A DNA stretch of 64,000 nt from Bryobacteraceae bacterium (lineage in GTDB: Bacteria; Acidobacteriota; Terriglobia; Bryobacterales; Bryobacteraceae), in NCBI GenBank assembly GCA_026002875.1, contig BPGE01000001.1, forward strand, positions 3,844,001 to 3,908,000, given 5' to 3'. The notes under the pieces were generated by a model. That model did no database searches. It saw only the letters and a program-made list of their open reading frames with translations, and was not told where the DNA came from. The position numbers and the translations under genes are program-made. Shown here one piece after another: positions 11,922 through 50,649 of this stretch. The stretch's first letter is position 1, and each line of letters opens with the position of its first letter.

Positions 11922-11935
11922 GACCGGCCTCCCCG

Positions 11936-28013: not shown

Positions 28014-28818
28014 GCGCTGCGCTGCGGAGGGATCCAGCCGTGCGGGGCCGCTGCCGCTGCACGCGGTAGTCGCCCCGGCTGAAGTATTTTTCGAGCCAGC
28101 AGTAGAGGGCGATGAACAGATACCGGCTGCCCATTTCCTTGATGCGAAGCTTCGACACCCCCGTGCGGCGGCCCCTCCAGGAGATGGGAACGACCGTCCA
28201 TGTGAACCCCCGCACGATGATCTTCAGCGGCAGCTCGACGGTCAGGTTGAAATGGGGCGAAAGAAACGGACGGCACCCGTCCAGCGCTTCACGCCGGTAT
28301 GCCTTGAACGCATTCGTAAAATCGTTGCACGGAACCCCGAACAGAAACCGCAGGAACAGATTGGCCATCCTGTTGAGCAGCAGCTTCAGAAACGGATAGT
28401 CGGAAACCCGCCCGCCATGGATGAAGCGCGACCCGAACACCGCGTCCCACCCTTCCTCCAGGACTCTCCAGTAACGCACGGCGTCGCCAGGGTCATCTGA
28501 GCCGTCCGCCATCATGATGACCAGAGCATCGCCGTTGGCGGCATCGATGCCCCGGATGACCGCCCGCCCAAAACCGTGGGGGCCGGGATTGTCCACGGGC
28601 CTTAGTTCCCGGATCCTCTCTGCGAGCGACGCCAGAATCAGGCTGGTTCCGTCGGTGCTGCCGTCATTCACGACGACAATTTCATGCGGCACCCCCGCTG
28701 AGGCCAGGGTCCTGTGAACATCCTCCACCGTCTCCGCAAGGCAGCCCTCTTCATTCCGGGCGGGAATAACCACCGAGAACAGCCGCAGCGGGTCAGGTTC
28801 GGGCGCTTCTCTGTTCAT
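28009..28818 (-). CDS. Family 2 glycosyltransferase (dolichol-phosphate mannosyltransferase-like)
   Basis: 269 residues. GT-A fold of GT2: FSVVIPARNEEGCLAETVED, EIVVVNDGSTDGTSLILASL, AVIRGIDAANGDALVIMMAD and the metal-binding ADGSDDPGD, then VFGSRFIHGG and FGVPCNDFTNAFKAYRREAL, which is the DPMS/GtrB-like signature. A lipid phosphate is the likely acceptor. There is no clear transmembrane pair at the C-terminus. The start overlaps the stop of the upstream epimerase (ATGA). Likely part of a surface-glycan operon reading toward dnaG. Confidence 0.88.
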   Translation of the reverse strand: MNREAPEPDPLRLFSVVIPARNEEGCLAETVEDVHRTLASAGVPHEIVVVNDGSTDGTSLILASLAERIRELRPVDNPGPHGFGRAVIRGIDAANGDALVIMMADGSDDPGDAVRYWRVLEEGWDAVFGSRFIHGGRVSDYPFLKLLLNRMANLFLRFLFGVPCNDFTNAFKAYRREALDGCRPFLSPHFNLTVELPLKIIVRGFTWTVVPISWRGRRTGVSKLRIKEMGSRYLFIALYCWLEKYFSRGDYRVQRQRPRTAGSLRSAAR

Positions 28819-29876
28819 GCCTGACTGATCTCCAGCCAATCCGGATGCGCTTCCGCGTGCCGCGCAATCTCTTCGAGAATCTCCTGCAGCGGTGTTGCTG
28901 CCCGCCAGCCGAATGCCTGCTCTGTGGCCGTGGAGTCCATCACGATCCAAGGCACATCGTACCGCGGCTCGCACGGATCGGCGGCCACCGGGTGCGGCCC
29001 GAAGCGTTGGTCGCACCATTCCGTCAGCCCGCGCAGAGAGATGGCGTTCGCCGTTCCGCCGCCTGCGTGCCACACACAGGGCCGCGCTGGCCGTCCCGCC
29101 TTCATCTGTTTCACCAGCAGCGCCGCCAGATCGCGCGGGTGCAGAACGTCGCGCGTCTGCAGCCCTTCGCCGCCAAATCCGGTGTAGCGCAGCGGTCTGC
29201 GCTGCCTGTGGGCGTGGATCCAGTAGGCGATGATTCCCTGCCGCGGAGTGCCGAACTGGCCGGCGCCAGCCAGAATGCTGCACCGCGTGATCCACACCGG
29301 GAGCCCGAACGCCTCGCCGTATTCCTGCGCGAGTCTCTCCGCGGCGAGCTTCGTCGCTCCGTACAGCGAAACCGGCGCTTCTGTCGAGAAGTCTGGGGCA
29401 AGACCTTTCTGTGAAACACCCGCCGGCAGGGGAGCTTCACCATTCAGCCGGTATCCCTGGCTTTCTTCTTTCAGAGGGAGGGACCGCAACCCGCGAATGC
29501 TGTAGACGCGGCTGGAGCTCAGCAGCAGCAGCCCCGCCCCATGACGCCTGCAAAATTCCAGCAGGTTGAGCGTCCCGAGCACGTTGTGCTCCATCAGCAG
29601 GACGCTATCGTCCCCGAGTCCCGCGCGCACGTCCGGGATCGCGGCTGCATCAATCACCCAGTCAACGGGAGGAATGCCTGCGACATCCACTGCGGACCTC
29701 TGGTCGCCATGGAAAAACCGCACGCCCAGATGTCTCATGAGAGTCCGGTTCTGCTCCGAACCGGGCCGCATGAGATTGTCGAGGCCGAACAGCGACGCCT
29801 GCGGATCGAGTTCCCGCAACGCGCGGCAGAGCGCGCTGCCCACAAAGCCGCAACAGCCCGAGACCAGGATCCTCAC
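28815..29876 (-). CDS. NAD-dependent epimerase/dehydratase (extended SDR), CDP-paratose 2-epimerase-like
   Basis: 353 residues. N-terminal NAD-binding motif [13 protein letters not shown], then [37 protein letters not shown] and the catalytic [18 protein letters not shown] (Tyr and Lys present). [17 protein letters not shown] and the C-terminal [18 protein letters not shown] fit nucleotide-sugar epimerases of the CDP-paratose/tyvelose group. It overlaps the neighbouring SDR gene upstream and the GT2 gene downstream by 4 nt each. Exact sugar is unknown. Confidence 0.85.
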
Positions 29877-30943
29877 TGCGCTCTCTGAGCCGCCCTGTCA
29901 AACCACGCCCGCGCGGTTTCTTCAAAGATCTGCGGCAGCGTCCGCGTGATCGACCACGCCGGATAATGGGACTGGATTTTCCGCAGGTCGCTGATGTAGC
30001 AGATGTGGTCTCCTTTCCTGGCTTCGTCGACGTAAGTCCAGTTCATTTTCCGGCCTGTGGCTTCCTCCGCCATCGTGATCGCCTCGAGCACCGAGCACGA
30101 ATTGCCCCGCCCCCCGCCGAGATTGTAAACCTCCGCCACGCGCGGCGCCAGAGCGAACTCCTCGACGAACCGGGCTACGTCGTAGGAATGGATATTGTCG
30201 CGGACCTGCTTCCCTTTGTATCCCAACACGCGGTAGGGCCGGCCCTCGACGCAGCACCGGACAAGATAGCTCAGAAAGCCGTGGAGCTCGACGCCGCTGT
30301 GGTTGGGGCCCGTCAGGCAGCCTCCGCGCAGACAGCACGTCGGCATTCCAAAGTACCGCCCGTATTCCTGCACGAGCACGTCCGCTGCGGTCTTGGAGGC
30401 GCCGAACAGGCTGTGCATCGACTGGTCAATCGGGAAGTCTTCGCCGATACCCCCGGCATACCGGGGGTCGTCGTAGTCCCACCGCGTGGGCAGTTCCCGC
30501 AACGGAATGGTGTTGGGCCGGTCCCCGTACACCTTGTTGGTGGAGAGGAACACGAAAGGCGATTCCGGGCAGTGCTGCCGCGCCGCTTCCAGCAGGTTCA
30601 GCGTGCCCAGCGCATTGACCTCGAAATCGAGAAACGGAATCGCTGCGGCCCTGTCATGAGACGGCTGGGCAGCCGCATGCACGATCAGATCCGGCTTCAG
30701 GCTGTTCACTGCCGCGTCCACCGCCGCCCGGTCGCGGATGTCGATCTCGTGGTGCTGGTAGCCGGGCGCCTGCTCGAGCAGGTGAGACAGCATCCATCGT
30801 GTATCTCCCTCGCGGCCGAAAAACACGCCCCGCATATGATTGTCAATCCCGGCCACGCGCCAGCCGCGCTGCGAGAAAAAGAGCGTCAATTCCGACCCGA
30901 TCAGGCCGCAGGAGCCGGTGATGAGAGCCAGCTTCGCCCGCAT
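29873..30943 (-). CDS. NAD-dependent epimerase (extended SDR), CDP-tyvelose epimerase-like
   Basis: 356 residues. [19 protein letters not shown] (NAD binding), [66 protein letters not shown] and [19 protein letters not shown] match the CDP-paratose/tyvelose 2-epimerase group. In the usual YxxxK motif the Tyr position is Phe (SLFGASK), whereas the adjacent paralogue has Tyr. It is the first of the three coupled genes running to the GT2; its ATG is followed 4 nt later by nothing unusual. Upstream lies a 317-nt gap. Confidence 0.85.
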
Positions 30944-31260
30944 AATCCATCAGCATAGCTCACGGCAATGGACTCGGCTCCCGATTCGCTTATTCCGCAT
31001 CTGCGCTCCAGCCGTTCTTGAGACAGAACCTGTGCTGCTTTAGCCGGCAGCTTGCCGCCAGCCATGTCCGGCAAAGCGTTCGCACCAGAATGCCTCCAGC
31101 AGGAACTCACCGCAGAGAACCGGGTGGGCCCATTCTATTCGCGTTGGCTCGACTCCCGTCCCGGCAGCACAAACGTCAAGCCCTGCCCAGCGGCGCGCAG
31201 CCGCACGGAGCCCCGCTTGCCCCGGACCGTGACTCTTCCGCTCCTGTTTGAACATTGCCT
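30944..31260. other. Gap without a recognised gene
   Basis: 317 nt between the membrane-protein gene stop and the epimerase start (both minus strand). On the minus strand TATGCT lies about 9 nt before the epimerase ATG and could be a -10 element. A 71-codon open frame (31255-31040, minus) has no recognisable motif. No terminator with a T run, repeat or RNA gene was seen. Confidence 0.35.
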
Positions 31261-33261
31261 TCAGCGCTGCCGTTGCTCACCTCTCGTGGATTCCGCCAGC
31301 CCGCTCGCACCACCTTCGCTGTCGGCAACCCATCGGACGCGGAACCACTTCACTCGAATCTCAGGATCGTACTCGGCTGGCCGCGGCGTCGTCCACGCAA
31401 TGGCCTGCACCGGATCCTCCTCTTCCCGGGCCGGACTTTCCAGCATTTCTGAAAATTCAGCGAGGTTTTCCGGCAGCGGCCGGATCTGCGCCGGAATCGT
31501 CAGCAGCCGCCGCACGCTGCGGTACCAGCCCTCCTTGCCAGACCGCCGCCAAACCCGCAGATGGATGGGCGCCGCACGGAGGAGAAACGTCCGCAGGGCC
31601 CCGTACGGCGAGGGCTGAATGTCAGCAGCGAAGTAGATGAACTCTCCGGGGCCGGAGTCAGGCAGCTCGACGGGTTGGTTCCAGGCGACAGAGGTCTCGC
31701 CGGCAGGGATCAGTTCAACCTGCACAGGCGGGCTTCGGCGCTCCATCAGCAGCGCACGATCACCGACCAGCACAGGCCTGTAGCGGGTCTTGAGCGCGTG
31801 AAGCGTCGCGGCGTCCTGCAGGAGCGGGTGGCGTCCATCAATGGCCTCCCAGACAAATAGCACGAAATCCGGCGCACGGTCTCCGGAGAAATGATCGGCG
31901 TTAAGACGGTCCAACGCGGGAGTATAGGCGCCGCTGGACTCGATGGTGGGACGCGGCCGGTAATTCCAGCCGTTGGCGCAGATGACGTCGATGCAGTGCG
32001 GGAATGCATCGACAGATCTGGCTCGGATGGCTTCATGGAACTCGGCGGGCAGGCGGAGATGGGTGCGGGCATTGTGAGAGTGGATCTGTAAACCCTGGTA
32101 CTCACGGCTCCAGTCCGCCAGTGTGCGCAGTGCGCCCATGATGCCCTGTGGCGTCAGCCTCGAGGCGGCGATGCGGACCAGCCATGGCTGCTCCTGCAGG
32201 ACGTAAATCCAGGTGAAGGCGCTGCCGAAGAGGAGCACCGGAACAAGCAACCGCCGCGCGAGGGGCGCCGTGCAGGCGGCAAGCAGAAACAGTCCGGCCA
32301 GGGCGAGCTTCTGCAAAGCAAGGTCCGCGTGGCCGTCCTGCCGCACCATGGCGTGCTTGAACCCAACGAATGCCGACAGACCAAAGCAGAGAAATGCGGG
32401 GCTGCGCAGCCAGCGCCACTCGCCGCTGACAACAGGCACGGAGAGAATCAGCATGCCATAAAGGACGGTCAGTCCCACTTGCCAGAGCGGCCCGTCGATG
32501 CTCATCGCATCGCTGTAACCGCTTGTGGTTTCCAGAAAATTCCTGAAGTAGGGGAACACCGCAAAGAGATCCCGCTCTACAAGCCCGAACCAGAGCAGCA
32601 CAGTGGCGGGCGGCAGAGCGAGGAAGAAAGCGGCCTGCAGGCGGCCAGGCCTGTGACGCCACAGAGCAGGCACGCAGAGAAGGTAATACAGGAGGAACGC
32701 TGCCAGCCCCTCGTTGGCTTTCAGCAGCATGGACAGGCCTGCAGCGATGGCCGCAACCGTCAGCCGCACAGGCGCCCAGGCATCCGCCCATGCCAGCGCC
32801 AGCAGGGCGGCCATGTAGCCTGCCTGCCAGACATCGGCGGGAGTGCGATCCAGAAGCGCCTGCGTGGCCAGCACGGCCGCCACGGCGGCGCCCTGCGGCG
32901 GACCCAGGCGCCGCAGCGCAGCAAAGGCTGCCCAGAGCAGGAGGAGCCAGTTCAAGACCCGCAACAGGAGAACCTGGCCAGCCGAAACCAGTTCCGGTTC
33001 CGGCGTGAACAGATAGCCGAGCGGCCCCATTGTGTAAGCGATGTGGCGGCCGAACACGAGACCCTGCTCGTGGATCAGATTCAGCGCAAGATACCAGGAG
33101 GCATCGACGCCCGCTCCATTGACCCAGGGCCGGCGGGGCAGCGCGCCGGCGAGCAGCCACAGAGCCAGAAGCCAGCAAAGGCGCAGGGAAAGATTACGGC
33201 CGGAGACGGGGAGAGCCGGGAGCAGACCTCGCGCCCGGGACCAATAGGACATTGGCCACAT
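31261..33261 (-). CDS. Large polytopic membrane protein, GT-C-like, unknown function
   Basis: 666 residues. About 11 hydrophobic helices occupy residues ~25-370, followed by a ~290-residue soluble C-terminal part rich in beta-prediction (LALNLIHEQGLVFGRHIAYT early; later PAEFHEAIRARSVDAFPHCI and IDVICANGWNYRPRP). The early loop NGAGVDASWYLALNLIHEQG has an acidic residue where GT-C transferases keep their catalytic Asp. This is suggestive only. It starts one base after the methyltransferase stop, so they are co-transcribed. Alternative start ATG 33252. Confidence 0.7.
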   Translation of the reverse strand: MWPMSYWSRARGLLPALPVSGRNLSLRLCWLLALWLLAGALPRRPWVNGAGVDASWYLALNLIHEQGLVFGRHIAYTMGPLGYLFTPEPELVSAGQVLLLRVLNWLLLLWAAFAALRRLGPPQGAAVAAVLATQALLDRTPADVWQAGYMAALLALAWADAWAPVRLTVAAIAAGLSMLLKANEGLAAFLLYYLLCVPALWRHRPGRLQAAFFLALPPATVLLWFGLVERDLFAVFPYFRNFLETTSGYSDAMSIDGPLWQVGLTVLYGMLILSVPVVSGEWRWLRSPAFLCFGLSAFVGFKHAMVRQDGHADLALQKLALAGLFLLAACTAPLARRLLVPVLLFGSAFTWIYVLQEQPWLVRIAASRLTPQGIMGALRTLADWSREYQGLQIHSHNARTHLRLPAEFHEAIRARSVDAFPHCIDVICANGWNYRPRPTIESSGAYTPALDRLNADHFSGDRAPDFVLFVWEAIDGRHPLLQDAATLHALKTRYRPVLVGDRALLMERRSPPVQVELIPAGETSVAWNQPVELPDSGPGEFIYFAADIQPSPYGALRTFLLRAAPIHLRVWRRSGKEGWYRSVRRLLTIPAQIRPLPENLAEFSEMLESPAREEEDPVQAIAWTTPRPAEYDPEIRVKWFRVRWVADSEGGASGLAESTRGEQRQR

Positions 33262-33262
33262 T

Positions 33263-33934
33263 CTAGCGAAGGGCCCTGGCTATTTCTGAATCGGCTCCTG
33301 CGACGGCGATGAGGGATTTCGGGAGGCCGCAGAACCGCTCGCGCAGGATCCGCGCTTCGGGGAAGAAACGCTGCATCTCTGCCTGCCTCAGCAGCCGGAT
33401 CTCTTCCAGGTAGTGGCGGAGATAGAACTCGCGCTCGTCCGCCGGCGCCCGCGACAGCAGAGCCCATAGTGAACAACGCGGAGCGAGGGCGCGCTGCCAT
33501 GTCCCGGGCAGCCAGTGCAGAAACGGCGTGTAGAGGTGCGGCTCGACGGGCGACGCCGCGTCCGGCGTCTGCACGAAATACCGCCGTCCCGTGCGCCGCA
33601 CCTCCGCGGCGAACCGCGCCATGGCCTCCGCCGTGCCCAGATGCTCAATCACGGAATTGCTGAACACCAGGTCGAACGACTGGTCTGCAAACGGCAGCGC
33701 CGTGCCGTCGCCGTCCACGTAGAGAACCCCGGGCGGCACGGGCTCGCGCGCGCGGGGCTGGTTCAGGATGACCAGACGCGGACGCACGGGGCAGAGTTCC
33801 CAGATCGCTGGAGTGCCGCCTACATCAAGCACGAGCCAATCCGGCTGCATGCCGAACCATTCGGCCAGCCAGCGCATGCGCTTCCGGCGGAACCGCGCAC
33901 CGAGGCGGGCAAGCTGGCCGAGTGCATCCATCAT
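33263..33934 (-). CDS. SAM-dependent methyltransferase (Methyltransf_11-like)
   Basis: 223 residues from ATG 33934. Motif I is WLVLDVGGTPAIWEL (one Gly of the usual GxGxG is replaced), then VLYVDGDGTALPFADQSFDL and VFSNSVIEHLGTAEAMARF, which is the Methyltransf_11 core. C-terminal half contains FVQTPDAASPVEPHLYTPFL and a basic/aromatic region. It heads a minus-strand glycan-type operon and may modify a lipid-linked sugar. TAGACT lies a few bases upstream of the start and could be a -10, giving a near-leaderless message. Confidence 0.82.
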   Translation of the reverse strand: MMDALGQLARLGARFRRKRMRWLAEWFGMQPDWLVLDVGGTPAIWELCPVRPRLVILNQPRAREPVPPGVLYVDGDGTALPFADQSFDLVFSNSVIEHLGTAEAMARFAAEVRRTGRRYFVQTPDAASPVEPHLYTPFLHWLPGTWQRALAPRCSLWALLSRAPADEREFYLRHYLEEIRLLRQAEMQRFFPEARILRERFCGLPKSLIAVAGADSEIARALR

Positions 33935-34275
33935 TCGTAGTCTACGCAGGCGTGGATTCCGCAAGCTCTCCTGACGCCGTCAGCTTCAACTATGGCAGTC
34001 GAACACTGGCAGGCAGGGCTGCCGGTGGAATCACCGAACGGGGAGAAACACAAGATGCCGGCATCCCGGATCGCATCCTTCTGGGTGCTGCTGTGCGGGA
34101 AACCTCGTTCTTCCGGGCGCTTGCAGCCTTTCCTTCGCTGCGCGGAACCTGCCGGAGGACCAGGCGATTCACCGAGACGAGCGCCTTGTGCGAGCGTCCG
34201 GGCGCCTGCGGTGACAGCTCGCGCGGCCGAATTCGCGGTCTTGCGCAAGAAACGCGGATCCTGCTAAGATTCAAG
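33935..34275. other. Intergenic region with tRNA promoter at its right end
   Basis: 341 nt. TTGCGC (34240-34245) and TAAGAT (34265-34270), 19 nt apart, form a plausible sigma70 promoter placed 5 nt before the tRNA. The rest has no gene with recognisable features; the short hairpin CTGACGCCGTCAG near 33973 is the only structure noted. Confidence 0.5.
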
Positions 34276-40382: not shown

Positions 40383-40673
40383 TCAATGCTGCGGCGGGAC
40401 GTAATCGGGCGGCAGCTGCGCGCCTTCGCCGAAGAAGTACTGCTCCATCTGTTTGAGCAGGAACTCCTGAGCCTCGCGCGTGCCGAGATTGAGGCGGTAT
40501 TCGTTCATGAGCATCTTCATGTGCTCGACCCACATGCGCCACGCCTCTTTGGACACGTTCTCGTAAATCTTCTGGCCCAACGGATGGTTGTCGAAAGGGA
40601 CTTCGTCGAGCCCTTCCATCTCGCGTCCGAATTTGACGCAGTGCACCATGCGCCTGGGTTTGGCTTCCGACAT
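40383..40673 (-). CDS. yggX: Probable Fe(2+)-trafficking protein YggX
   Basis: 96 residues, the family's usual length. The N-terminus carries the conserved single Cys (VHCVKFGREMEGLDEVPF), followed by PLGQKIYENVSKEAWRMWVE and YRLNLGTREAQEFLLKQMEQ, which are diagnostic. In enterobacteria YggX supports iron-sulfur clusters under oxidative stress. AAAGGAGG lies 9-10 nt before the ATG. It is 53 nt downstream of the haem-binding protein gene and may be the last gene of that transcript. The BNR remnant follows immediately. Confidence 0.93.
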   Translation of the reverse strand: MSEAKPRRMVHCVKFGREMEGLDEVPFDNHPLGQKIYENVSKEAWRMWVEHMKMLMNEYRLNLGTREAQEFLLKQMEQYFFGEGAQLPPDYVPPQH

Positions 40674-40726
40674 TCGATCAGGCCTCCTTTAGCAGTTTCG
40701 CGCAAACGGGAGCGGACGGGCGCGCC

Positions 40727-41173
40727 TCATTTCGGCTGCGCCTCGCGCGTCCATGAGCAGACCGTCTGGATCTCCGCGCCGGTGAGTTTCGCCTCCGGAT
40801 GAAGGGCGAGATAGCTTTTCAGCGGCATGGAGCCGACACGGATCTCCTGGCAGACATCCTTGAGCGACATCTCCTCGGTGAAGTCGTCCATGTTGAAGTG
40901 GCGGCGTCCGTCTTTGACGTGATCGGCGAGGAACCAGGAGACGGGGGCCAGGTTGCTGTACCAGGGCCAACGGGTGCGGTTGGAGTGGCAGTCGCCGCAG
41001 GCGCGCTCGAGGATTTGCTTGACATTCTGAGGCACTTCATACTGCGCCTCGAGCGTGTATTCCGGGTTGACGGGCGGATTGGTCCGCTCGGGACGGACGG
41101 CCTGCATCCCGGCGAACACAACCACCAGAGCGATGACGATCCAGCGGGCCCAGCGCGTGCTCATGCTTTTCAT
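40727..41173 (-). CDS. Haem-binding domain protein (cytochrome-like, CxxCH), membrane-anchored
   Basis: 148 residues. One N-terminal membrane helix (WIVIALVVVFAGMQAV), then a Haem_bd-type domain: VPQNVKQILERACGDCHSNR with Cys59, Cys62, His63, followed by TRWPWYSNLAPVSWFLADHV and FTEEMSLKDVCQEIRVGSMP, LALHPEAKLTGAEIQTVCSW. Such single-haem exported proteins are common near oxidases and lyases, but the partner is not known. It starts 30 nt after the KAS III-like gene and could belong to the same transcript. Alternative start Met at 41164. Confidence 0.85.
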   Translation of the reverse strand: MKSMSTRWARWIVIALVVVFAGMQAVRPERTNPPVNPEYTLEAQYEVPQNVKQILERACGDCHSNRTRWPWYSNLAPVSWFLADHVKDGRRHFNMDDFTEEMSLKDVCQEIRVGSMPLKSYLALHPEAKLTGAEIQTVCSWTREAQPK

Positions 41174-41203: not shown

Positions 41204-42136
41204 TCAGACGCCGCGGGCGAGCAGCGCGCCCCAGTGGAAGCCCGCGCCGAACGCAGCGAAGACGACCGGCGCGCCGGAACGGAAGCCTTCCGCGCGGCTC
41301 CACTCGCAGGCCGCAATCAGCAGGGATGCCGAAGAAGTGTTGCCATAGCGGCGGATGTTGGAGAAGAAGCGATCCGGCGGCACGCCCAGGGCCGCAGCGA
41401 TCTTGTCGAGCAGGTTCTGGTTGGCCTGGTGCATGAGGAACGCCTGAACGGCGGCGGGCGCGACGCCATTGCGGTCGAGCACGGTGCGGATGGCGGCGGG
41501 GATTTTCCGCGAGGCCTGCAGGATGACGCTGCGGCCGTTCATCTGCAGGGGCGCACCGTGATCGAGTTTCAGGTCATCCGCAAAGGAGCCGTCGGAGGCC
41601 AGGAAAGAGTCGACGATCTCGGCGCGTCCGGCGTTGGGCGAAACAAGGCACGCGCCGGCGCCGTCGCCGAAGAGGATGGCGACGCCCCTTTCCCGCGGCT
41701 CCCGCAGAACGACGCGGGACATGATCTCCGCGCCGATGACAAGGATGGGGCCGAGCTGTCCGGCCAGGCGCGAGGCGAGCGAGAGCGCGAACAGCGATCC
41801 CGCGCTGGCCATGGGGATGTCGAGGGCGGGCACGTGCTCCGCGCCCAGCAGCCGCGCCGCCGTGCAGGCGGGACCGGGGAAGGAGCGCTCGGCTGTGCCG
41901 CTGGCCACCAGGATCATGCCGAGATGTTTCGCTGCAAGACCGGCGCGCTTCAGGCAGTCCGCGCCCGCGCGGGCGGCCAGATCGGCCACCGTCTCGGTCT
42001 CCGCGGCGAAGCGGCGCTCGTCAATGCCGGAGACGTTCCTGACCCACTCGGCGTCCGAGCCGACCCACGAGCCGGCTTCCGCGCTGGTGACGATGTGCTC
42101 CGGCAGCCAGCAGCCGAATTCTGCAAGAAACGCCAT
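41204..42136 (-). CDS. KAS III (FabH-fold) protein with catalytic Cys replaced by Ser
   Basis: 310 residues and clearly FabH-like: N-terminal GCWLPEHIVTSAE, SDAEWVRNVSGIDERRFA, MILVASGTAERSFPGPA. At the nucleophile the sequence is ALDIPMASAGSLFAL, where FabH has AFDVAAACAGF; Ser111 (AGC codon at 41806-41804) replaces Cys. His236 (AFLMHQANQNLLDKI) and Asn266 (NIRRYGNTSSAS) are retained. Such Ser-type homologues are known as acyltransferases rather than condensing enzymes in some pathways; here that is inference. It is 6 nt downstream of the carrier-protein gene and belongs to the MBOAT/SGNH locus, so an acyl group on the carrier protein is the likely substrate. Confidence 0.88.
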   Translation of the reverse strand: MAFLAEFGCWLPEHIVTSAEAGSWVGSDAEWVRNVSGIDERRFAAETETVADLAARAGADCLKRAGLAAKHLGMILVASGTAERSFPGPACTAARLLGAEHVPALDIPMASAGSLFALSLASRLAGQLGPILVIGAEIMSRVVLREPRERGVAILFGDGAGACLVSPNAGRAEIVDSFLASDGSFADDLKLDHGAPLQMNGRSVILQASRKIPAAIRTVLDRNGVAPAAVQAFLMHQANQNLLDKIAAALGVPPDRFFSNIRRYGNTSSASLLIAACEWSRAEGFRSGAPVVFAAFGAGFHWGALLARGV

Positions 42137-42142
42137 GCGCGG

Positions 42143-42376
42143 TCAGGCCCTCGAGTCCAGATATTCTTCAATGCGCTGGATGGAGTCGAACTTGCGCGGG
42201 TTGAGGTCGGAATCCGGGATCTGGATGGAGAACTCCTGCTCGAGGGCGCTGACGAGGTCCGGCAGGGCGAAGGAATCGAGGACGCCGGACTCGAAAAGAG
42301 ACTCCTCCGGGCCGATATTCACGTCTTTTTTGGTGACGGATTTCAGGATTTCAATGAGTTTTGACCGGCGATCCAT
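42143..42376 (-). CDS. Acyl carrier protein, DltC-like
   Basis: 77 residues, the usual length. Ser35 in SLFESGVLDSFALPDLV is the phosphopantetheine site; the FESGVLDSF pattern is closer to D-alanyl carrier proteins (DltC) than to fatty-acid ACP. Helix III region FSIQIPDSDLNPRKFDSIQR is also DltC-like. It overlaps the upstream SGNH gene by 26 nt and precedes the KAS III-like gene by 6 nt. No adenylating enzyme (DltA) or phosphopantetheinyl transferase lies in the window, so what is loaded is unknown. Confidence 0.9.
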   Translation of the reverse strand: MDRRSKLIEILKSVTKKDVNIGPEESLFESGVLDSFALPDLVSALEQEFSIQIPDSDLNPRKFDSIQRIEEYLDSRA

Positions 42377-43718
42377 TGCCGTTTTCTCCCATGATTTTAT
42401 TCCGGATCGAGACGAAAATGCCGTACTGGCCCATGATCAGCTCGTACAGCGTGTCGCCCACCAGGCGGTAGCCCGCGGCGGTGAGATGGACATAATCGCC
42501 CTGGGCGAGGCCGGCGCGGACCCACTCCCGCATGGCGCCGGGGCCGCCCATGGCGGAGCGCAGGTTCCAGAAGGCGCAGCGGTGGGCGAGGGCGGCGCGG
42601 CGCTGCGCCTCGAGGATCTGATCCGTGCCCGAGGGCGGGACGGCGGCGCGGCGGGTTCGGATGAACTGGTCCGGCGCGCCGACGACGAGGATGCTGGCGA
42701 CGGGCGCCGCCTCGCGGAGCAGCGTCAGCACGGCGTCGAGAGCCTGCTGATAGGTTTCCACGGTCCAGTCCTTGCGGCGGGACTCGTTGGTGCCGTAGGC
42801 GACGAGGATCAGAGCGGGATTGCGGCGGGCGATCTGATCCTTGAGCAGCGCGGGGTCCTGCCTGAGGAGCAGGTCGGCCTGCGCGCCGTTCAGCCCGAGC
42901 GTCTCCCAGGTGATGCCGCCGCGGCGCTCAAGCACCCAGCCGAAGACGCGCACGGGAGCATCGTGGAGGGTGCGCAGCAGGAGCGAGTGCGGGCCGGCGG
43001 GCAGTTCGGCGCGGAAATAGCCTGGCCCCGGAGAGCCGTCCGTAGAGACTTCTCCGATAATGGAACCGTTCTCTTCGAGTGAAAAGGAGCCGCCGCCGGG
43101 CTGCTTCCAGTAGTAGAACTCGAGCACTTCGCCCTCGGCTTCGAGCGTGAGCGTCTCGCCGGCGCGGGCGGTGGCAAGGCTGACGCCGGCGATGCCGTCG
43201 AAGCCGTCGCCGCCGCGGATGCCGCCGAGGGTCTGCCATCCGCGGGACATGGAAGACTTCGCATCGAGGCGGCGGAAGCCCGCATAGGGACGGCCCGCCT
43301 GGACGAAGCCGGGGCCTCCGGGGCCGAAACGCTGCTGAAAGCGGGCGCGCAGCTGGCCAGGCCAGTCGTCGGCGGCGGTGTGGGAATCGCCGAACTGCAG
43401 CACGCGCAGGGGCTGGCCGTTCTCGACGTGGTTCTCGAGCCGGTACATCAGCTCGTAGAGCGGCACCATGGCGGCGGCGTTTTCGATGCCGGTTTCCGGC
43501 GCGAGTCGGACACGCGATTCGACTGTAGCAGCGGCCTCGGCGCGAGCCTGCGGGGAGACGGGAGGGGGTTTCGGGACGGTGCGCCGCCGGGCGGCGGGAC
43601 TCGCGGTTGTTTTCTTCGGGGACGCGGAGGACTGTCTGGTGGAAGAACTCTGCGGGAGAAGCGGGGCAGCAGTGAGGGCGAGCGCCAGCAGCGCCGCGCG
43701 CGGCAGGATGCGTTTCAT
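42351..43718 (-). CDS. Exported SGNH/GDSL-fold protein 1
   Basis: 455 residues. Signal peptide, then a Ser/Pro/Lys-rich linker (~20-60). Block I is VLQFGDSHTAADDW (Ser112), block III VAYGTNESRRKDW and block V GDYVHLTAAGYRLVG (Asp and His), so the catalytic triad is intact. A ~110-residue beta insert (FYYWKQPGGGSFSLEENGSI) separates blocks I and III, like the CBM-type insert seen in AlgJ/AlgX/PatB relatives. Likely a periplasmic O-acyltransferase or esterase acting on a polymer. It directly follows its paralogue (43719-45107) and overlaps the carrier-protein gene by 26 nt. Confidence 0.85.
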   Translation of the reverse strand: MKRILPRAALLALALTAAPLLPQSSSTRQSSASPKKTTASPAARRRTVPKPPPVSPQARAEAAATVESRVRLAPETGIENAAAMVPLYELMYRLENHVENGQPLRVLQFGDSHTAADDWPGQLRARFQQRFGPGGPGFVQAGRPYAGFRRLDAKSSMSRGWQTLGGIRGGDGFDGIAGVSLATARAGETLTLEAEGEVLEFYYWKQPGGGSFSLEENGSIIGEVSTDGSPGPGYFRAELPAGPHSLLLRTLHDAPVRVFGWVLERRGGITWETLGLNGAQADLLLRQDPALLKDQIARRNPALILVAYGTNESRRKDWTVETYQQALDAVLTLLREAAPVASILVVGAPDQFIRTRRAAVPPSGTDQILEAQRRAALAHRCAFWNLRSAMGGPGAMREWVRAGLAQGDYVHLTAAGYRLVGDTLYELIMGQYGIFVSIRNKIMGENGNGSPVKTH

Positions 43719-45107
43719 TTACGGCTGGACCGTCCCGGGCTGGCTGCCTGCGGCGGCGGTCTGGCGCAGCAGCCTGAGCTTGTAGGCGTTGAAGCCGTCC
43801 ATAAGGGCATTGTAGAGCAGCGTGCCTACGATGCGCCCTCCGGCGGGCAGCGGGTGGATGAAGTCCGCGCTGACGAGCCGGGGTTCGGCCATGTACCACT
43901 TGCCCATGGTGCCGGGGCCGCCCATCGCCTCGAAGGTATTGAAGAAGGCGCAACCGTTCTCTGCGGCGAGCTTCGCCTGAACGGCCACCAGATGGGGGAT
44001 GGAGGGCATGGTGCCGATGGCGCCGCCAGACTCCCGCACGCCGCGGTCCATGGGGCTCATGATCAGGATGGACGCTTCGGGAACAGCCGAGCGGACGCGG
44101 CGGATGATCTCTTTCACGTCCCGCGGGTACGTGGAGTCGATGTAATTGCGGTAGCCGCTTTCGTTGGTCCCGTAATGGATGATGACGAGATTCGGCCGCG
44201 CCTGCCGCAACTGCTCGGCCCAGTGGCTGGCGTTCATATGCCAGGCGAGAACGCCCGCCCAGGTGCCGTTCAGCCCGATGCTGTCGTACACGATGCCGGG
44301 GTTGGGCTTGAACAGCTCAACGTGGAACAGGCGCACCTGCCCGCGGGTGACGCGCAGTTCCAGCTCCAGCGTTTCCGGCGGGATGTCGAACGCCTGCCGG
44401 GCGGCCATGACTTCCGCCGCCGCCGTGTCGAGCACGCCAGCTTCGATGTCCCCCGCCAGGATCCGGAGCTCGCCGCCGCCGGGCTGCGCCACGTAAGAAA
44501 GAACCAGCTGCGTGTGGCCGGGCCTCTTCAGCCGGAGCCGGCTCCAGGCGCCGGCAGAGCCCGTGAAGCTGACGCCGCCCAGACCGTACCAGCCGTCCTT
44601 CTGGCCTCGCAATGTGGCGGGGTCGGCCTTCCAGCCTTCGGCTGCGGCGTCGACGCCCCGGTGCGCGTACCAGGCCCAGGGTTTGGCGATGAGATAGGCG
44701 CCGTGGCCGGCATCGCCGAACCGCTCCTGCAGCAGGGCGCGGACGTCGGCGGTGATGAGATCGGCCGTGACGGGCGAATCGCCGTAATGCAGAATGCGCG
44801 TCACCGCGCCTGGCTCGCGGCGCTCGGTGCGCAGGAGGCTTGCATAGAAAGACTCCATCGCCCCGTGCGGATCGGCGATCTTCAGCGGGTCCTGTCCGGG
44901 CCTGGGCGCCGCCGGACGCAGCCGCGCCAGTTCCTCTTCCACGGGGCTTTCCTTGCGCATCCGCGGCTGGAAATCAAACAGGGACGAGGCTGAGCGCCAC
45001 TCATAGACGCGCCAGTTATGCCACTGCGGAACGTATTGCGGCAGCGTGATCAGGAGCCCGAAGGTGGCCATCACGGCGAGCGGTTTCAGCGGCCAGAGAG
45101 GCTTCAT
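43719..45107 (-). CDS. Exported SGNH/GDSL-fold protein 2, membrane-anchored
   Basis: 462 residues. An N-terminal hydrophobic helix (AVMATFGLLITLPQYVP) may be an uncleaved anchor. Triad blocks are ILHYGDSPVTADL (Ser111), VIIHYGTNESGYR and SADFIHPLPAGGRIVG (Asp, His), with a beta insert (LVLSYVAQPGGGELRILAG) between I and III. It is clearly paralogous to the following gene, with the same order of blocks and FEAMGGPGTM/RSAMGGPGAM in common, but diverged. It begins 7 nt after the MBOAT gene, like DltD or AlgJ next to their MBOAT. Probably receives the acyl group from the MBOAT protein. Confidence 0.85.
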   Translation of the reverse strand: MKPLWPLKPLAVMATFGLLITLPQYVPQWHNWRVYEWRSASSLFDFQPRMRKESPVEEELARLRPAAPRPGQDPLKIADPHGAMESFYASLLRTERREPGAVTRILHYGDSPVTADLITADVRALLQERFGDAGHGAYLIAKPWAWYAHRGVDAAAEGWKADPATLRGQKDGWYGLGGVSFTGSAGAWSRLRLKRPGHTQLVLSYVAQPGGGELRILAGDIEAGVLDTAAAEVMAARQAFDIPPETLELELRVTRGQVRLFHVELFKPNPGIVYDSIGLNGTWAGVLAWHMNASHWAEQLRQARPNLVIIHYGTNESGYRNYIDSTYPRDVKEIIRRVRSAVPEASILIMSPMDRGVRESGGAIGTMPSIPHLVAVQAKLAAENGCAFFNTFEAMGGPGTMGKWYMAEPRLVSADFIHPLPAGGRIVGTLLYNALMDGFNAYKLRLLRQTAAAGSQPGTVQP

Positions 45108-45114
45108 GGCGTCC

Positions 45115-46521
45115 TCAGAACTGCGTGTACAGGAACGGCGCGGCGCCCGTGATGGCAACGTACTCGATGGCCAGAACGAGCAGCGCCAGAGCGGCTGCCT
45201 GCGCATAGAACGGCGCGCGCGCGTACAGGGCCGCGCACCACTCGGCCCAGCGCTTCGGCAGATAGTGCGCCGTGACGGCGATCAGCAGAACCACGGCGAT
45301 CGGTAGCGTGATGTTGGCGAAGCTGACCGTGAGCGACCCGATCCTGCCCAGCACCTCGAAGGCGTTCCCGATCGAAGAGGCGCGGAAGAAGATCCACGCG
45401 AAGATGACGAAATGCGCCGTCAGCACGCGGCTCAGCAGCCGCGCGGGCCAGCCGCCCGGCGGCGGATTGCCGCGCGCCGCCCGGAAGCCGTGATGAACGG
45501 CCAGCGCCAGCCCGTGCAGCGCGCCCCAGACGACGAAGGTCCAGCTGGGGCCATGCCACAGTCCGCCGAGCAGCATGGTGATGAACAGGTTGAAATAGGT
45601 GGGCCACTTCCACCTGGAGCGGAGGCCCGGCAGCGAGAAATACAGATAATCGCGGAGCCAGTTCGACAGGCTGATGTGCCACCGGCGCCAGAACTCGCTG
45701 ATGTTCAGCGCCAGATAGGGCCGGTTGAAATTCTCCGGCAGCCTGATGCCCAGCAGAAGCGCGCTTCCGATGGCGATGTCCGTGTAGCCGGAGAAGTCGT
45801 AGTAGAGCTGCGCGGCGTAAGCGTAGACGCCGATGAGAGTCTCCATGCCGGTATACAGACCGGGCGTGTCGAAGACGCGGTTGACAAGATTCTCGGCCAG
45901 ATAATCGGCGATGAGGAATTTCTTCATCAGGCCGATTCCGATGCGCCAGAAGGCGCGGCCGCTGTCTTCGGGGGAAAGCTGCTTTCCGGTCTTTTCGAGC
46001 TGCGGCGCCAGCGCCAGCACGCGCGTGATGGGACCGCTGAGCGTCGTGGGAAAGAAGGTGACCGCAGTCATGTGCGTCAGCAGGCTGCGCACGGGCTTGC
46101 CATCGCGCCGGTAGAGGTCGATGGTGTAGGTCATCGCCTGGAAGCAGTAGAAAGAGAGGCCGAGCGGAAAGACCCAGTGCCATTCGGGCGCCTTGCCGCC
46201 CGAGGCGGCTGCCCAGGTCCCAAGGAAGAAGGGCATGTACTTGAACGCCGCCAGCAGGCCCAGGTTGAGGGCGATGCTCGCCGTCACCAGCAGACGGCGC
46301 ACCGGGGGGCTCTGCCAGGCGCCCAGACCGCGCCCGATGAGGTAATCGAGGAACGCCGCCGGCGGGATCAGCGCCAGGTAGTGCAGATCCCACTTGGCAT
46401 AAAAGAAGAGATTGGCGAACAGCAGCAGCGCGACAGATGCCGCGCGCCAGCGGGACAACGGCCAGTAGAGGAGAAAAACCCCGGCCAAAAAGACGAAATA
46501 GATGGAGCTGGCAAGAACCAT
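45115..46521 (-). CDS. MBOAT family O-acyltransferase (AlgI/DltB-like)
   Basis: 468 residues with ~10-12 membrane helices. AlgI-type signatures: FANLFFYAKWDLHYLALI, FPLGLSFYCFQAMTYTIDLY, TFFPTTLSGPITR, YAAQLYYDFSGYTDIAIGSA, NFNRPYLALNISEFWRRWHI and the invariant His in LLGGLWHGPSWTFVVWGALHG. These proteins pass an acyl group across the membrane to an SGNH partner. Start ATG 46521 is chosen; GTG 46527 is an alternative. It is the first acyl-transfer gene of the locus and lies 48 nt after the MBL hydrolase gene on the same strand. Confidence 0.93.
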   Translation of the reverse strand: MVLASSIYFVFLAGVFLLYWPLSRWRAASVALLLFANLFFYAKWDLHYLALIPPAAFLDYLIGRGLGAWQSPPVRRLLVTASIALNLGLLAAFKYMPFFLGTWAAASGGKAPEWHWVFPLGLSFYCFQAMTYTIDLYRRDGKPVRSLLTHMTAVTFFPTTLSGPITRVLALAPQLEKTGKQLSPEDSGRAFWRIGIGLMKKFLIADYLAENLVNRVFDTPGLYTGMETLIGVYAYAAQLYYDFSGYTDIAIGSALLLGIRLPENFNRPYLALNISEFWRRWHISLSNWLRDYLYFSLPGLRSRWKWPTYFNLFITMLLGGLWHGPSWTFVVWGALHGLALAVHHGFRAARGNPPPGGWPARLLSRVLTAHFVIFAWIFFRASSIGNAFEVLGRIGSLTVSFANITLPIAVVLLIAVTAHYLPKRWAEWCAALYARAPFYAQAAALALLVLAIEYVAITGAAPFLYTQF

Positions 46522-46569
46522 GCGCACGCCGCCGAGGGCGTGTGTTTTCCATTCTAGCCGGAGCGAGGC

Positions 46570-49325: not shown

Positions 49326-50119
49326 TCAAGCTGGGCGGAACGCTCCTGGATCAGCCGAAGACGCTGAAGGCGCTGGCGGCGCAGATCGCCGCCCTGCCGG
49401 CTGGCGCGCAGCCGGTGGTGGTCCACGGCGGCGGCAAACAGATGACGAAGTTCCTGGAGGAGCGCGGCGTGGAGAGCCGGTTTGTCAACGGGCTGCGCGT
49501 GACGACCCCGGAAGTGCTGGACGCCGTGCTCAAGATCTTCGCCGGCAGCGTAAACAAGCAGCTGGTGGCCGCGCTCGTGGCCGAGGGCGCCCCTGCCGTG
49601 GGGCTGAGCGGCATTGACGCGAAGCTGGCGGAAGCGAAACCGATGAGCGCGGAGCTGGGCGCCGTCGGGCGCATCCACCGGGTGAACGCGGAGCTTCTGG
49701 AAGTGCTCTGCGACGCCAGCTACCTGCCCGTGGTGGCCTGCGTGGCGGGCGACTCGGACGGCAACATCTACAACGTGAACGCGGACCAGATGGCTTCGGC
49801 GCTGGCCATCGCGTTTGATGCGGACCGGCTCATCTTTCTGACGGATGTGGAGGGCGTGCGCGGCGCCGGCGGAGCGATCCTGTCCCACCTGACTCCGGAC
49901 GACGCCAGGAAGCTGATCGCCGCCGGGGTGGCGACCGGCGGGATGCAGGCGAAGCTGGAAGCCGCGTGCGAAGCCGTCGATCAGGGGGTGTCCGAGGTGG
50001 TCATCGCGCCCGGCGCGGCGCCGGGCATTCTCGACCGCCTGATTGCCGGCGAGGCGGCGGGCACGCTGCTGAGCTGGAACTGGGAGCCGGAGGACGTGGA
50101 AGAGGAGGAAGAGGAGTGA
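49313..50119 (+). CDS. argB: Acetylglutamate kinase
   Basis: 268 residues. Amino-acid kinase fold: MRIVIKLGGTLLDQPK (Lys-Gly-Gly), VVVHGGGKQMTKFLEERG, FVNGLRVTTPEVLDAVLKIF, YNVNADQMASALAIAFDADR and LTDVEGVRG. It phosphorylates N-acetylglutamate, the second step of arginine synthesis. The C-terminus ends in a run of acidic residues (EDVEEEEEE) that is not part of the usual fold; its purine-rich DNA serves as the ribosome binding site of the next gene. Overlaps argC by 13 nt. Confidence 0.94.
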   Translation: MRIVIKLGGTLLDQPKTLKALAAQIAALPAGAQPVVVHGGGKQMTKFLEERGVESRFVNGLRVTTPEVLDAVLKIFAGSVNKQLVAALVAEGAPAVGLSGIDAKLAEAKPMSAELGAVGRIHRVNAELLEVLCDASYLPVVACVAGDSDGNIYNVNADQMASALAIAFDADRLIFLTDVEGVRGAGGAILSHLTPDDARKLIAAGVATGGMQAKLEAACEAVDQGVSEVVIAPGAAPGILDRLIAGEAAGTLLSWNWEPEDVEEEEEE

Positions 50120-50649
50120 CGCTGCGCAAGGCGCGCATGAGCGATATCCCGGGAATCCTGCGCCTGATCAACGGCTATGCGGCGCAGGGCCTCATGCTGC
50201 CGCGCAACGGCTTCGAGCTGGCGGAAAACATCCGCGACTTCACCGTGGCTGCAGCCGCCGATACGGTGCACGGATGCGCCGCCCTGCACTTCTACGGCCC
50301 CGCGATGGCGGAAGTGCGCTCGCTGGCGGTGGACGAGACGCTGAAAGGGGCGGGCATCGGCAGGCTGCTGATGGAGGCGCTGGAGGCCGAGGCGCGCGGG
50401 TTCGATCTCGACCTGCTGTTCGCCTTCACCTATGTGCCGAAGTTCTTTACGCGGCTGGGATACCGGCAGGTGGACCGGAGCGCCCTGCCGCTGAAAGCCT
50501 GGAAAGACTGCCTGCGGTGCCCGAAATTCCAGGCCTGCGACGAAATCGCCGTGCTGAAGTGGCTGAAGCCGGAGGCGGAACTGGCGGGACGGACCGAAAC
50601 CGCCGACACCGACGAGCTGATCCAGATCCCCGTGTTTCGGGGCAATTAG
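50116..50649 (+). CDS. argA: GNAT-family N-acetyltransferase, short ArgA type
   Basis: 177 residues from GTG 50116, overlapping argB by 4 nt, with a purine run (GAGGAGGAAGAGGAG) as Shine-Dalgarno. GNAT motifs: MSDIPGILRLINGYAAQGLM, AEVRSLAVDETLKGAGIGRL (acetyl-CoA loop) and LFAFTYVPKFFTRLGYRQVD. These, and the CPKFQACDEIAVLKWL tail, match the short N-acetylglutamate synthases (ArgA-like, without a kinase domain). With argC and argB it supplies the first three steps of arginine synthesis. Confidence 0.88.
   Translation: MTLRKARMSDIPGILRLINGYAAQGLMLPRNGFELAENIRDFTVAAAADTVHGCAALHFYGPAMAEVRSLAVDETLKGAGIGRLLMEALEAEARGFDLDLLFAFTYVPKFFTRLGYRQVDRSALPLKAWKDCLRCPKFQACDEIAVLKWLKPEAELAGRTETADTDELIQIPVFRGN

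Follow-up and report, generated by a model that had tools for sequence, protein, structure and literature searches.

A serine-bearing KAS III paralogue and a dedicated carrier protein in an acidobacterial MBOAT/SGNH operon: a candidate carrier-fed route of envelope O-acylation

How is an acyl group supplied to a membrane O-acyltransferase (MBOAT) whose operon encodes a carrier protein of its own, with a β-ketoacyl-acyl carrier protein synthase III (KAS III)-like protein in the place of a DltA-type loader? The question is raised by a locus in a 64,000-nucleotide stretch of DNA, here called the window (GenBank assembly GCA_026002875.1, contig BPGE01000001.1, positions 3,844,001 to 3,908,000), which is part of the complete 4.86-Mb genome of a soil bacterium of the Bryobacteraceae, phylum Acidobacteriota. 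Five minus-strand open reading frames (ORFs) at window positions 41204-46527 encode, in order of transcription, a 470-residue MBOAT (45115..46527; Pfam PF03062, E 9e-29), two Ape1-type SGNH proteins, SGNH1 (43719..45107) and SGNH2 (42351..43718; Lipase_GDSL_2, E about 3e-15 for each), a DltC-like acyl carrier protein (ACP; 42143..42376; PP-binding, E 2.9e-10), and a paralogue of the KAS III enzyme FabH (41204..42136; ACP_syn_III_C, E 2e-26). The family name of each protein is backed by Pfam and NCBIfam, and the operon MBOAT is the sole MBOAT match in its genome. Gene order and the intergenic gaps of 7, 0, -26, and 6 nucleotides agree with a preliminary description of this DNA; its MBOAT start at 46521 is an internal ATG, and we place the start at a GTG at 46527. 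We propose, with a probability of about 55%, that the machine as a whole is a carrier-fed variant of PatA/PatB/Ape1-type envelope O-acylation.

The five genes are one real, conserved unit in Acidobacteriota, and they almost certainly act as a functional unit. In a related set of 61 genomes queried with SGNH1, 17 gave a match and 16 were counted as block carriers, G005 (E 2.4e-4), whose locus L047 gave no match, being set aside. All five genes stand in the same order in 11 of the 15 relatives' loci (L047 aside), the KAS gene of one of them, L036, being cut by a contig end. All five are present in rearranged order in L045, L037 keeps the ACP gene and has a transposase-like ORF in the KAS position (L037:5127-7808), and L039 and L041 hold MBOAT-SGNH1-SGNH2 alone. 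The 26-nucleotide overlap of SGNH2 and ACP, stop codon included, is found in the window and in seven loci (L032-L038), as compared with script-chosen start codons. This recurrence bears out the single operon first suggested for the locus. The ACP-KAS adjacency is kept alongside MBOAT/SGNH across genomes, as the preliminary description expected of a true unit, and the separation of these genes in all related genomes that would speak against one was not observed, 11 of 15 loci keeping the block.

A scan of a named genome collection with the KAS alignment, in which the best 80 of 527 loci were analysed, gave a similar picture. The top 16 of these 80 are Acidobacteriota by title and carry Ser at the active site in every case, the closest named relative being Bryobacterales bacterium UBA690 (75% identity). 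ACP lies directly upstream of KAS in 15 of the 16, the other, L063, being cut by a contig end; the block is complete in nine, and L054 and L059 show SGNH2-ACP-KAS truncated by contig ends. The remaining 64 loci encode FabH-like proteins with Cys, and none has an MBOAT or SGNH profile match in the locus; absence of the Ser-type KAS from other phyla is not proven by the best 80 of 527. One contig appears both as L040 of the first set and L051 of the second, and both were kept in the tree and tables. In the wider phylum, the SGNH2 profile matches 36 of 396 genomes, of which 20 had their loci read, two (G000 and G028) were already in the set, and 14, all weak matches apart from G227 (E 8.5e-32), were left out. 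The full five-gene block occurs in 6 of these 20 loci. Nine carry Ser-type KAS with ACP (L129-L132, L135, L138, and L141-L143), and three carry Cys-type KAS with ACP (L133, L136, and L137). L134 has ACP but no local KAS, and seven loci lack both genes (L128, L139, L140, and L144-L147), L144 being a 3.5-kb contig whose genome was not scanned for the pair.

The KAS protein also tracks the block at the level of whole genomes. Operon-type KAS, scoring at least 341 bits, is present in 15 of the 16 block-carrying genomes, with Ser confirmed in all 15, and in none of the 45 block-less genomes, which were judged by KAS score, with the active site inspected in four (G001, G002, G005, and G006, all Cys). 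The next best match overall, at 248 bits, is in G023. G001 and G002, block-less genomes of the same genus, have only a FabH-like KAS match. The association gives a Fisher p of 2e-13 over the 61 genomes and 2.5e-9 within the family, neither corrected for kinship. It extends to genomes in which the genes are dispersed: G028, G036, and G348 have MBOAT-SGNH1-SGNH2 without an adjoining pair and carry ACP-KAS(Ser) on another contig. The sole exception, G023, has its ACP gene beside the transposase-like ORF; its KAS (L153) is unlinked, of Cys type, and belongs to the sister clade. G350, the source of L134, likewise has an unlinked Cys-type KAS of that clade. The unlinked pairs of G036 and G028 (L208 and L209) adjoin flagellin, FliD-, FliW-, or FlgB-like genes named by eye, and flagellin profile matches are present at both sites.

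What kind of KAS is this? The KAS III fold and general similarity are evident from Pfam, NCBIfam, and an alignment to E. coli FabH (1hn9), in which Ser111, His236, and Asn266 correspond to Cys112, His244, and Asn274. All 13 aligned copies chosen by locus have Ser in place of the catalytic Cys. For a residue table, proteins were grouped by the active-site residue itself into 40 Ser-type rows (39 independent sources, two rows coming from one contig), 5 system-associated Cys-type rows, and 30 FabH-like rows, so the Ser and Cys counts are no test; L162, L168-L171, L176, and L177 (long-branch or non-FabH) and two duplicate rows were omitted. Three of the five Cys-type rows are linked to MBOAT/SGNH, and the unlinked L152 and L153 were selected partly by motif. 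The positions of His236 and Asn266, which we take to be the decarboxylation pair of FabH, are invariant in all rows. The position of FabH Arg249 holds Asn in 38 of 40 Ser-type and 5 of 5 Cys-type system rows and Arg in 30 of 30 FabH-like rows, FabH Arg36 is lost in the system proteins, and Phe87 is retained in 31 of 40 Ser-type and none of the Cys-type system rows. Arg36 and Arg249 are presumably ACP-docking residues, and their loss would be fitting for a changed partner ACP. A maximum-likelihood tree was built from 84 rows, 82 of them different, after sampling one in four of the 64 FabH-like scan hits and dropping rows shorter than 250 residues. In it the 41 Ser rows make up a single clade (100/99) and the five Cys-type system proteins another (100/99); the two clades group at 99/99, separate from FabH, including that of the window genome. 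On alignment and tree, we regard the protein as a predicted Ser-nucleophile paralogue, not an ordinary FabH.

There is precedent for both features of such an enzyme. ChlB3 resembles ketosynthase III and loads a discrete ACP (PMC9573744), and BolM and DpsC are KAS III homologues with Ser replacing Cys (PMC7756342), the effect of the change in BolM being called unclear.

The carrier itself is most closely related, among solved structures, to DltC (8jf2_F and 6bug_A, E about 6e-12), in agreement with its first naming as DltC-like, and scores below cut-off with the NCBIfam DltC models (46 versus 68 and 28.5 versus 52 bits). Its Ser35, within the motif LDSFAL, is the predicted phosphopantetheine site, and D-S-F is invariant in 14 of 14 sequences. 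The absence of DltA, noticed earlier for the window, holds genome-wide: no DltA (TIGR01734) exceeds the cut-off in any of the 61 genomes, window genome included. Homologues of adenylating enzymes occur in all 61. We consider the ACP very probably the donor for the MBOAT.

The MBOAT has DltB as its nearest solved relative (E 1.2e-41) and does not reach the DltB equivalog model TIGR04091 (173.8 bits against a cut-off of 375). His284, His325, and Tyr467 are invariant; Tyr467 lies in the C-terminal FLYTQF, an acyl-shuttle hexapeptide, and FxYxxF is present in 16 of 16 aligned homologues. In PatA this shuttle is acylated on Tyr, the motif being known from carrier-free systems (PMC12148441), and FLYTQF fits it. 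Unexpectedly, the residue after the Tyr separates two groups: carrier-linked MBOATs usually have T/S/N/Q/G/A there, and those without a carrier usually F or Y. Of 34 MBOATs that have ACP or ACP-KAS in the same locus (a count that includes L040 and L051, one contig), 33 have a non-aromatic residue at this position, the exception being L138; so do all five whose pair lies elsewhere in the genome (L039, L041, L128, L198, and L199, the last scored as unlinked though the script placed it under local). The residue is aromatic in all four acidobacterial MBOATs that adjoin related SGNH genes but lack a local pair (L144-L147, the pair status of L144 being undecided), in 7 of 7 other MBOATs, and in 11 of the 14 taken from the phylum to which a Myxococcales record (L117) belongs, the remaining three having Gly. 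A more distant MBOAT (L205:160-1899), with the tail FLYFKF and an adjoining divergent ACP gene, is aromatic and counts against the pattern. With L205 included, non-aromatic residues occur in 38 of 40 carrier-linked MBOATs versus 3 of 25 others (p 5e-12), and without the duplicate and L144 in 37 of 39 versus 3 of 24 (p 2e-11), in neither case corrected for kinship. The Holophagaceae genome from which L205 comes also holds a Ser-type KAS (L063).

Both SGNH proteins have intact catalytic residues, invariant in 16 of 16 sequences (Ser111, Asn315, Asp415, and His418 in SGNH1; Ser112, Asn311, Asp408, and His411 in SGNH2). SGNH1 has a predicted N-terminal helix that by eye is a membrane anchor, and SGNH2 by eye has a signal peptide. 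The MBOAT, with its conserved His and shuttle Tyr motif, and the two SGNH proteins, with an intact Ser/Asn/Asp-His set and judged, on visual inspection of sequence and model, to be exported, have the features of the MBOAT-SGNH class. AlphaFold models (pLDDT 79.5 for SGNH1 and 84.2 for SGNH2) both have Ape1 4k3u as the top fold match, at a TM score by target of 0.86 (profile E 6.6e-32) and 0.84-0.85 (profile E 2.4e-54), respectively, and the top five fold matches of each are Ape1 chains (TM about 0.81-0.86 on target). These fold and profile matches to Ape1 run over the whole length and include the inserted CBM35-like domain, which in Ape1 also lies within the SGNH domain (PMC6174289, PMC9487903). 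The PatB family (PF04311, DUF459) has no match in the window genome (G000) and exceeds the cut-off in 2 of the 61 genomes of the related set. SGNH1 adjoins the MBOAT gene in acidobacterial loci that show both (0.6 kb apart in L134), and because of this position we assign it the PatB role, proposing that SGNH1 is the acyltransferase and SGNH2 either a second transferase or an O-acylesterase. Since both proteins are Ape1-type, peptidoglycan, at the C6 hydroxyl of N-acetylmuramic acid, is the somewhat favoured polymer. The preliminary description left acyl group and polymer open, and the choice of polymer has narrowed.

The data show directly which genes make up the set, that they are conserved and co-occur, that Ser replaces Cys in the KAS, that the MBOAT has the shuttle motif, and that the SGNH proteins are related to Ape1. 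From these we assemble the following route. The KAS III paralogue would take an acyl group from coenzyme A (CoA) onto Ser111 and pass it to the phosphopantetheine of the DltC-like ACP, probably by transfer only, without condensation. By analogy with the Dlt and Pat mechanisms, the MBOAT would take the acyl group from the charged ACP and carry it through the membrane to Tyr467 in its own tail; Ser111 of SGNH1 would accept it and esterify an envelope glycan, and SGNH2 could act as a second transferase or remove acyl groups as an esterase. The earlier proposal that a KAS III-fold protein replaces DltA-type loading is upheld as to its position and its linkage to the carrier, and amended in that the protein is a Ser paralogue rather than an ordinary FabH; the chemistry and its direction stay conditional. 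More tentatively, the Ser-nucleophile KAS III may build or load a non-acetyl acyl group on its dedicated carrier, with the shuttle peptide co-changed from FxYFxF to FxY[T/S/N/Q/G/A]xF, which would constitute a third feeding route for MBOAT/SGNH machines beside acyl-CoA (PatA, AlgI) and DltA-adenylated DltC.

Each known system resembles part of this arrangement. As in PatA/PatB/Ape1, an MBOAT with a C-terminal FxYxxF is followed by two SGNH proteins, both closest to Ape1 here, and the gene order recalls patA-patB-ape1; PatA, however, uses acetyl-CoA directly (PMC12148441), whereas a dedicated ACP and a KAS III paralogue are added here, and with no PatB-family match an Ape1-type protein apparently takes the PatB role. 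The Dlt system shares the MBOAT nearest DltB among solved structures, the carrier nearest DltC, and an SGNH acceptor. It differs in that here DltA is not above cut-off and the KAS III paralogue occupies the loader's place, the shuttle motif is fused to the MBOAT in PatA/AlgI style rather than residing in a separate DltX, and the SGNH proteins are of the Lipase_GDSL_2/Ape1 type. AlgI/AlgJ/AlgX and other polysaccharide O-acetylation systems likewise combine an MBOAT with two SGNH proteins, but those described here are Ape1-type (Lipase_GDSL_2) and accompanied by a carrier. ChlB3, CerJ, DpsC, and BolM share the FabH fold with an altered active site, ChlB3 in loading a discrete ACP and DpsC and BolM in having Ser, but belong to secondary-metabolite pathways; the triads are Cys-His-Asp in ChlB3 and CerJ, Ser-His-His in DpsC (PMC9573744), and Ser-His-Asn here. 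No publication on a system of MBOAT, carrier, and KAS III was found in the open-licence literature, and the gene set is apparently undescribed so far.

Several observations weigh against carrier-fed O-acylation of peptidoglycan by a single five-gene machine. In the top KAS-scan loci L055, L060, and L061, SGNH2-ACP-KAS stands with MBOAT-SGNH1 out of reach, as does ACP-KAS alone in L056; MBOAT and SGNH1 adjoin each other elsewhere in the L061 genome, and MBOAT-SGNH1-SGNH2 is sited elsewhere in that of L056. From these split arrangements, MBOAT-SGNH1 and ACP-KAS are the tight pairs. Identity to Ape1 is 14-26% and is no proof of polymer. The Block II Gly lost in PatB transferases is still present in SGNH1 and SGNH2 alike, so by that mark both look esterase-like and neither stands out as the transferase. 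The MBOAT-SGNH core also occurs without local ACP or KAS outside Acidobacteriota, as described below, and so does not need them everywhere. As to chemistry, the C116S change in CerJ, a Cys KAS III acyltransferase, abolishes transfer (PMC9573744). DpsC, with its Ser, is a chain-starting enzyme (PMC7756342) and a condensing one according to PMC9573744; because DpsC starts chains and CerJ C116S is inactive, Ser alone does not discriminate between transfer and condensation. The intact His236 and Asn266 in 40 of 40 Ser-type rows would fit condensation as well.

Condensation is accordingly one alternative: the Ser-nucleophile KAS would join acyl-CoA with malonyl bound to the dedicated ACP, leaving a 3-oxoacyl group such as acetoacetyl for the MBOAT to export. 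The intact pair, the DpsC precedent, and a Cys-type clade that serves the same kind of locus speak for it, but the five genes include no reductase or malonyl-loading gene, the presumed docking residues Arg249 and Arg36 are lost, and we know of no 3-oxoacyl ester used as a wall decoration; we consider it distinctly unlikely. It is less doubtful, though still rather unlikely, that the same machine acts on another polymer, an exopolysaccharide, a lipopolysaccharide glycan, or a flagellin glycan. MBOAT/SGNH systems also modify alginate and cellulose (PMC12148441), CBM35-type modules also accompany plant-glycan hydrolases and esterases (PMC6174289, PMC9487903), two unlinked ACP-KAS pairs lie, by eye, beside flagellar genes, and the window has epimerase-type ORFs at 28.8-30.9 kb and 59.2 kb and a methyltransferase ORF, the sugar-nucleotide epimerase pair 10-12 kb from the operon leaving room for another glycan. 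Set against this are the Ape1 entries that fill the top five places in both fold searches and the distribution of the candidate targets. Cellulose is unsupported: cellulose synthase (BcsA) exceeds the cut-off in 2 of 61 genomes and in 1 of 16 system genomes, that of the window not among them. A flagellin glycan, prompted by the two unlinked pairs, is unsupported as a rule, Flagellin_N matching in all 16 system genomes but in 23 of the 45 others too, and with a single weak match in G030, a 99% complete genome.

Two further alternatives concern the KAS gene itself. Ser nucleophiles are typical of hydrolases, and the KAS-like protein might edit or unload the carrier in a thioesterase-like manner while one of the adenylating-enzyme homologues encoded elsewhere in all 61 genomes loads it. 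This is very improbable given that DltA is above cut-off in 0 of 61, that no adenosine monophosphate-forming ligase is among the five genes, and that KAS adjoins ACP even in pairs unlinked from MBOAT (0.6 kb apart in L133). Least credible is the chance placement of ordinary fabH and acpP fatty-acid genes beside an O-acetylation operon. NCBIfam does name the protein beta-ketoacyl-ACP synthase 3, with 249.9 bits against a subfamily cut-off of 249, but a separate FabH with Cys is encoded in the same genome (C1:2199049-2200008), and the Ser substitution, distinct clade, and co-occurrence with the block complete a case by which this explanation is largely refuted.

Is the carrier module found wherever the core is? 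In the phylum of the Myxococcales record, the SGNH1 profile matches 149 of 282 genomes, many strongly. Of 20 loci read from 18 of these genomes, 13 have MBOAT and SGNH1, mostly with SGNH2, in addition to a split MBOAT frame in L224; the SGNH1-MBOAT linkage is looser there, the genes being divergent in L219, L223, and L224 and 4 kb apart in L235. A local ACP or KAS was found in none of the 20, the search covering the loci and not unlinked pairs in the genomes. Since these loci lack both, MBOAT plus Ape1-type SGNH is the core, to which Acidobacteriota seem to have added ACP-KAS as a loading module. In the phylum of a Roseibacillus record (L075), SGNH1-profile matches occur in 35 of 240 genomes, the best at 33 bits, and are short. 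Across L211-L238, which belong to the Myxococcales-record phylum, MBOAT with Ape1-type SGNH is common, possibly a widespread wall O-acylation module without PatB.

An MBL-family hydrolase gene upstream and a haem-binding gene downstream had been suggested as possible parts of the system, and we reject both as conserved members. Of the 15 relatives' loci, four (L032, L033, L037, and L042) have the former immediately upstream, two more (L034 and L041) have it 1.4 and 4.4 kb off, and two, both of the same genus, have the latter. In the window, the haem-binding gene and an Fe(2+)-trafficking (YggX-type) gene lie downstream on the operon strand (40383-41173). Upstream on the opposite strand are argC- and argB-type genes, followed directly by a GNAT acetyltransferase ORF (49966-50649, same strand as these). 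A minus-strand group 7-12 kb downstream of the operon (28815-33964), possibly a glycan locus, comprises the two adjacent epimerase/dehydratase-type ORFs, the neighbouring methyltransferase ORF, and a 666-residue ORF without a Pfam match. The window context neither names nor excludes a glycan, no search for polymer-export genes having been made. Farther away on the minus strand, a 2303-residue ORF (5028-11939) has immunoglobulin-like, fibronectin III, PKD, and carbohydrate-binding domains.

According to a 2025 paper on PatA/PatB, MBOAT/SGNH pathways besides Dlt work without a carrier protein (PMC12148441), a generalisation that the five-gene set contradicts. The set points to Ape1-type proteins as the transferase where PatB is absent, and it supplies 39 independent Ser-type KAS III proteins from nature, with an evident carrier partner, as material for the Cys-to-Ser question. 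The wall chemistry of Acidobacteriota also becomes testable: if a non-acetyl group is indeed loaded, the peptidoglycan of these bacteria would carry an O-acyl modification other than acetyl.

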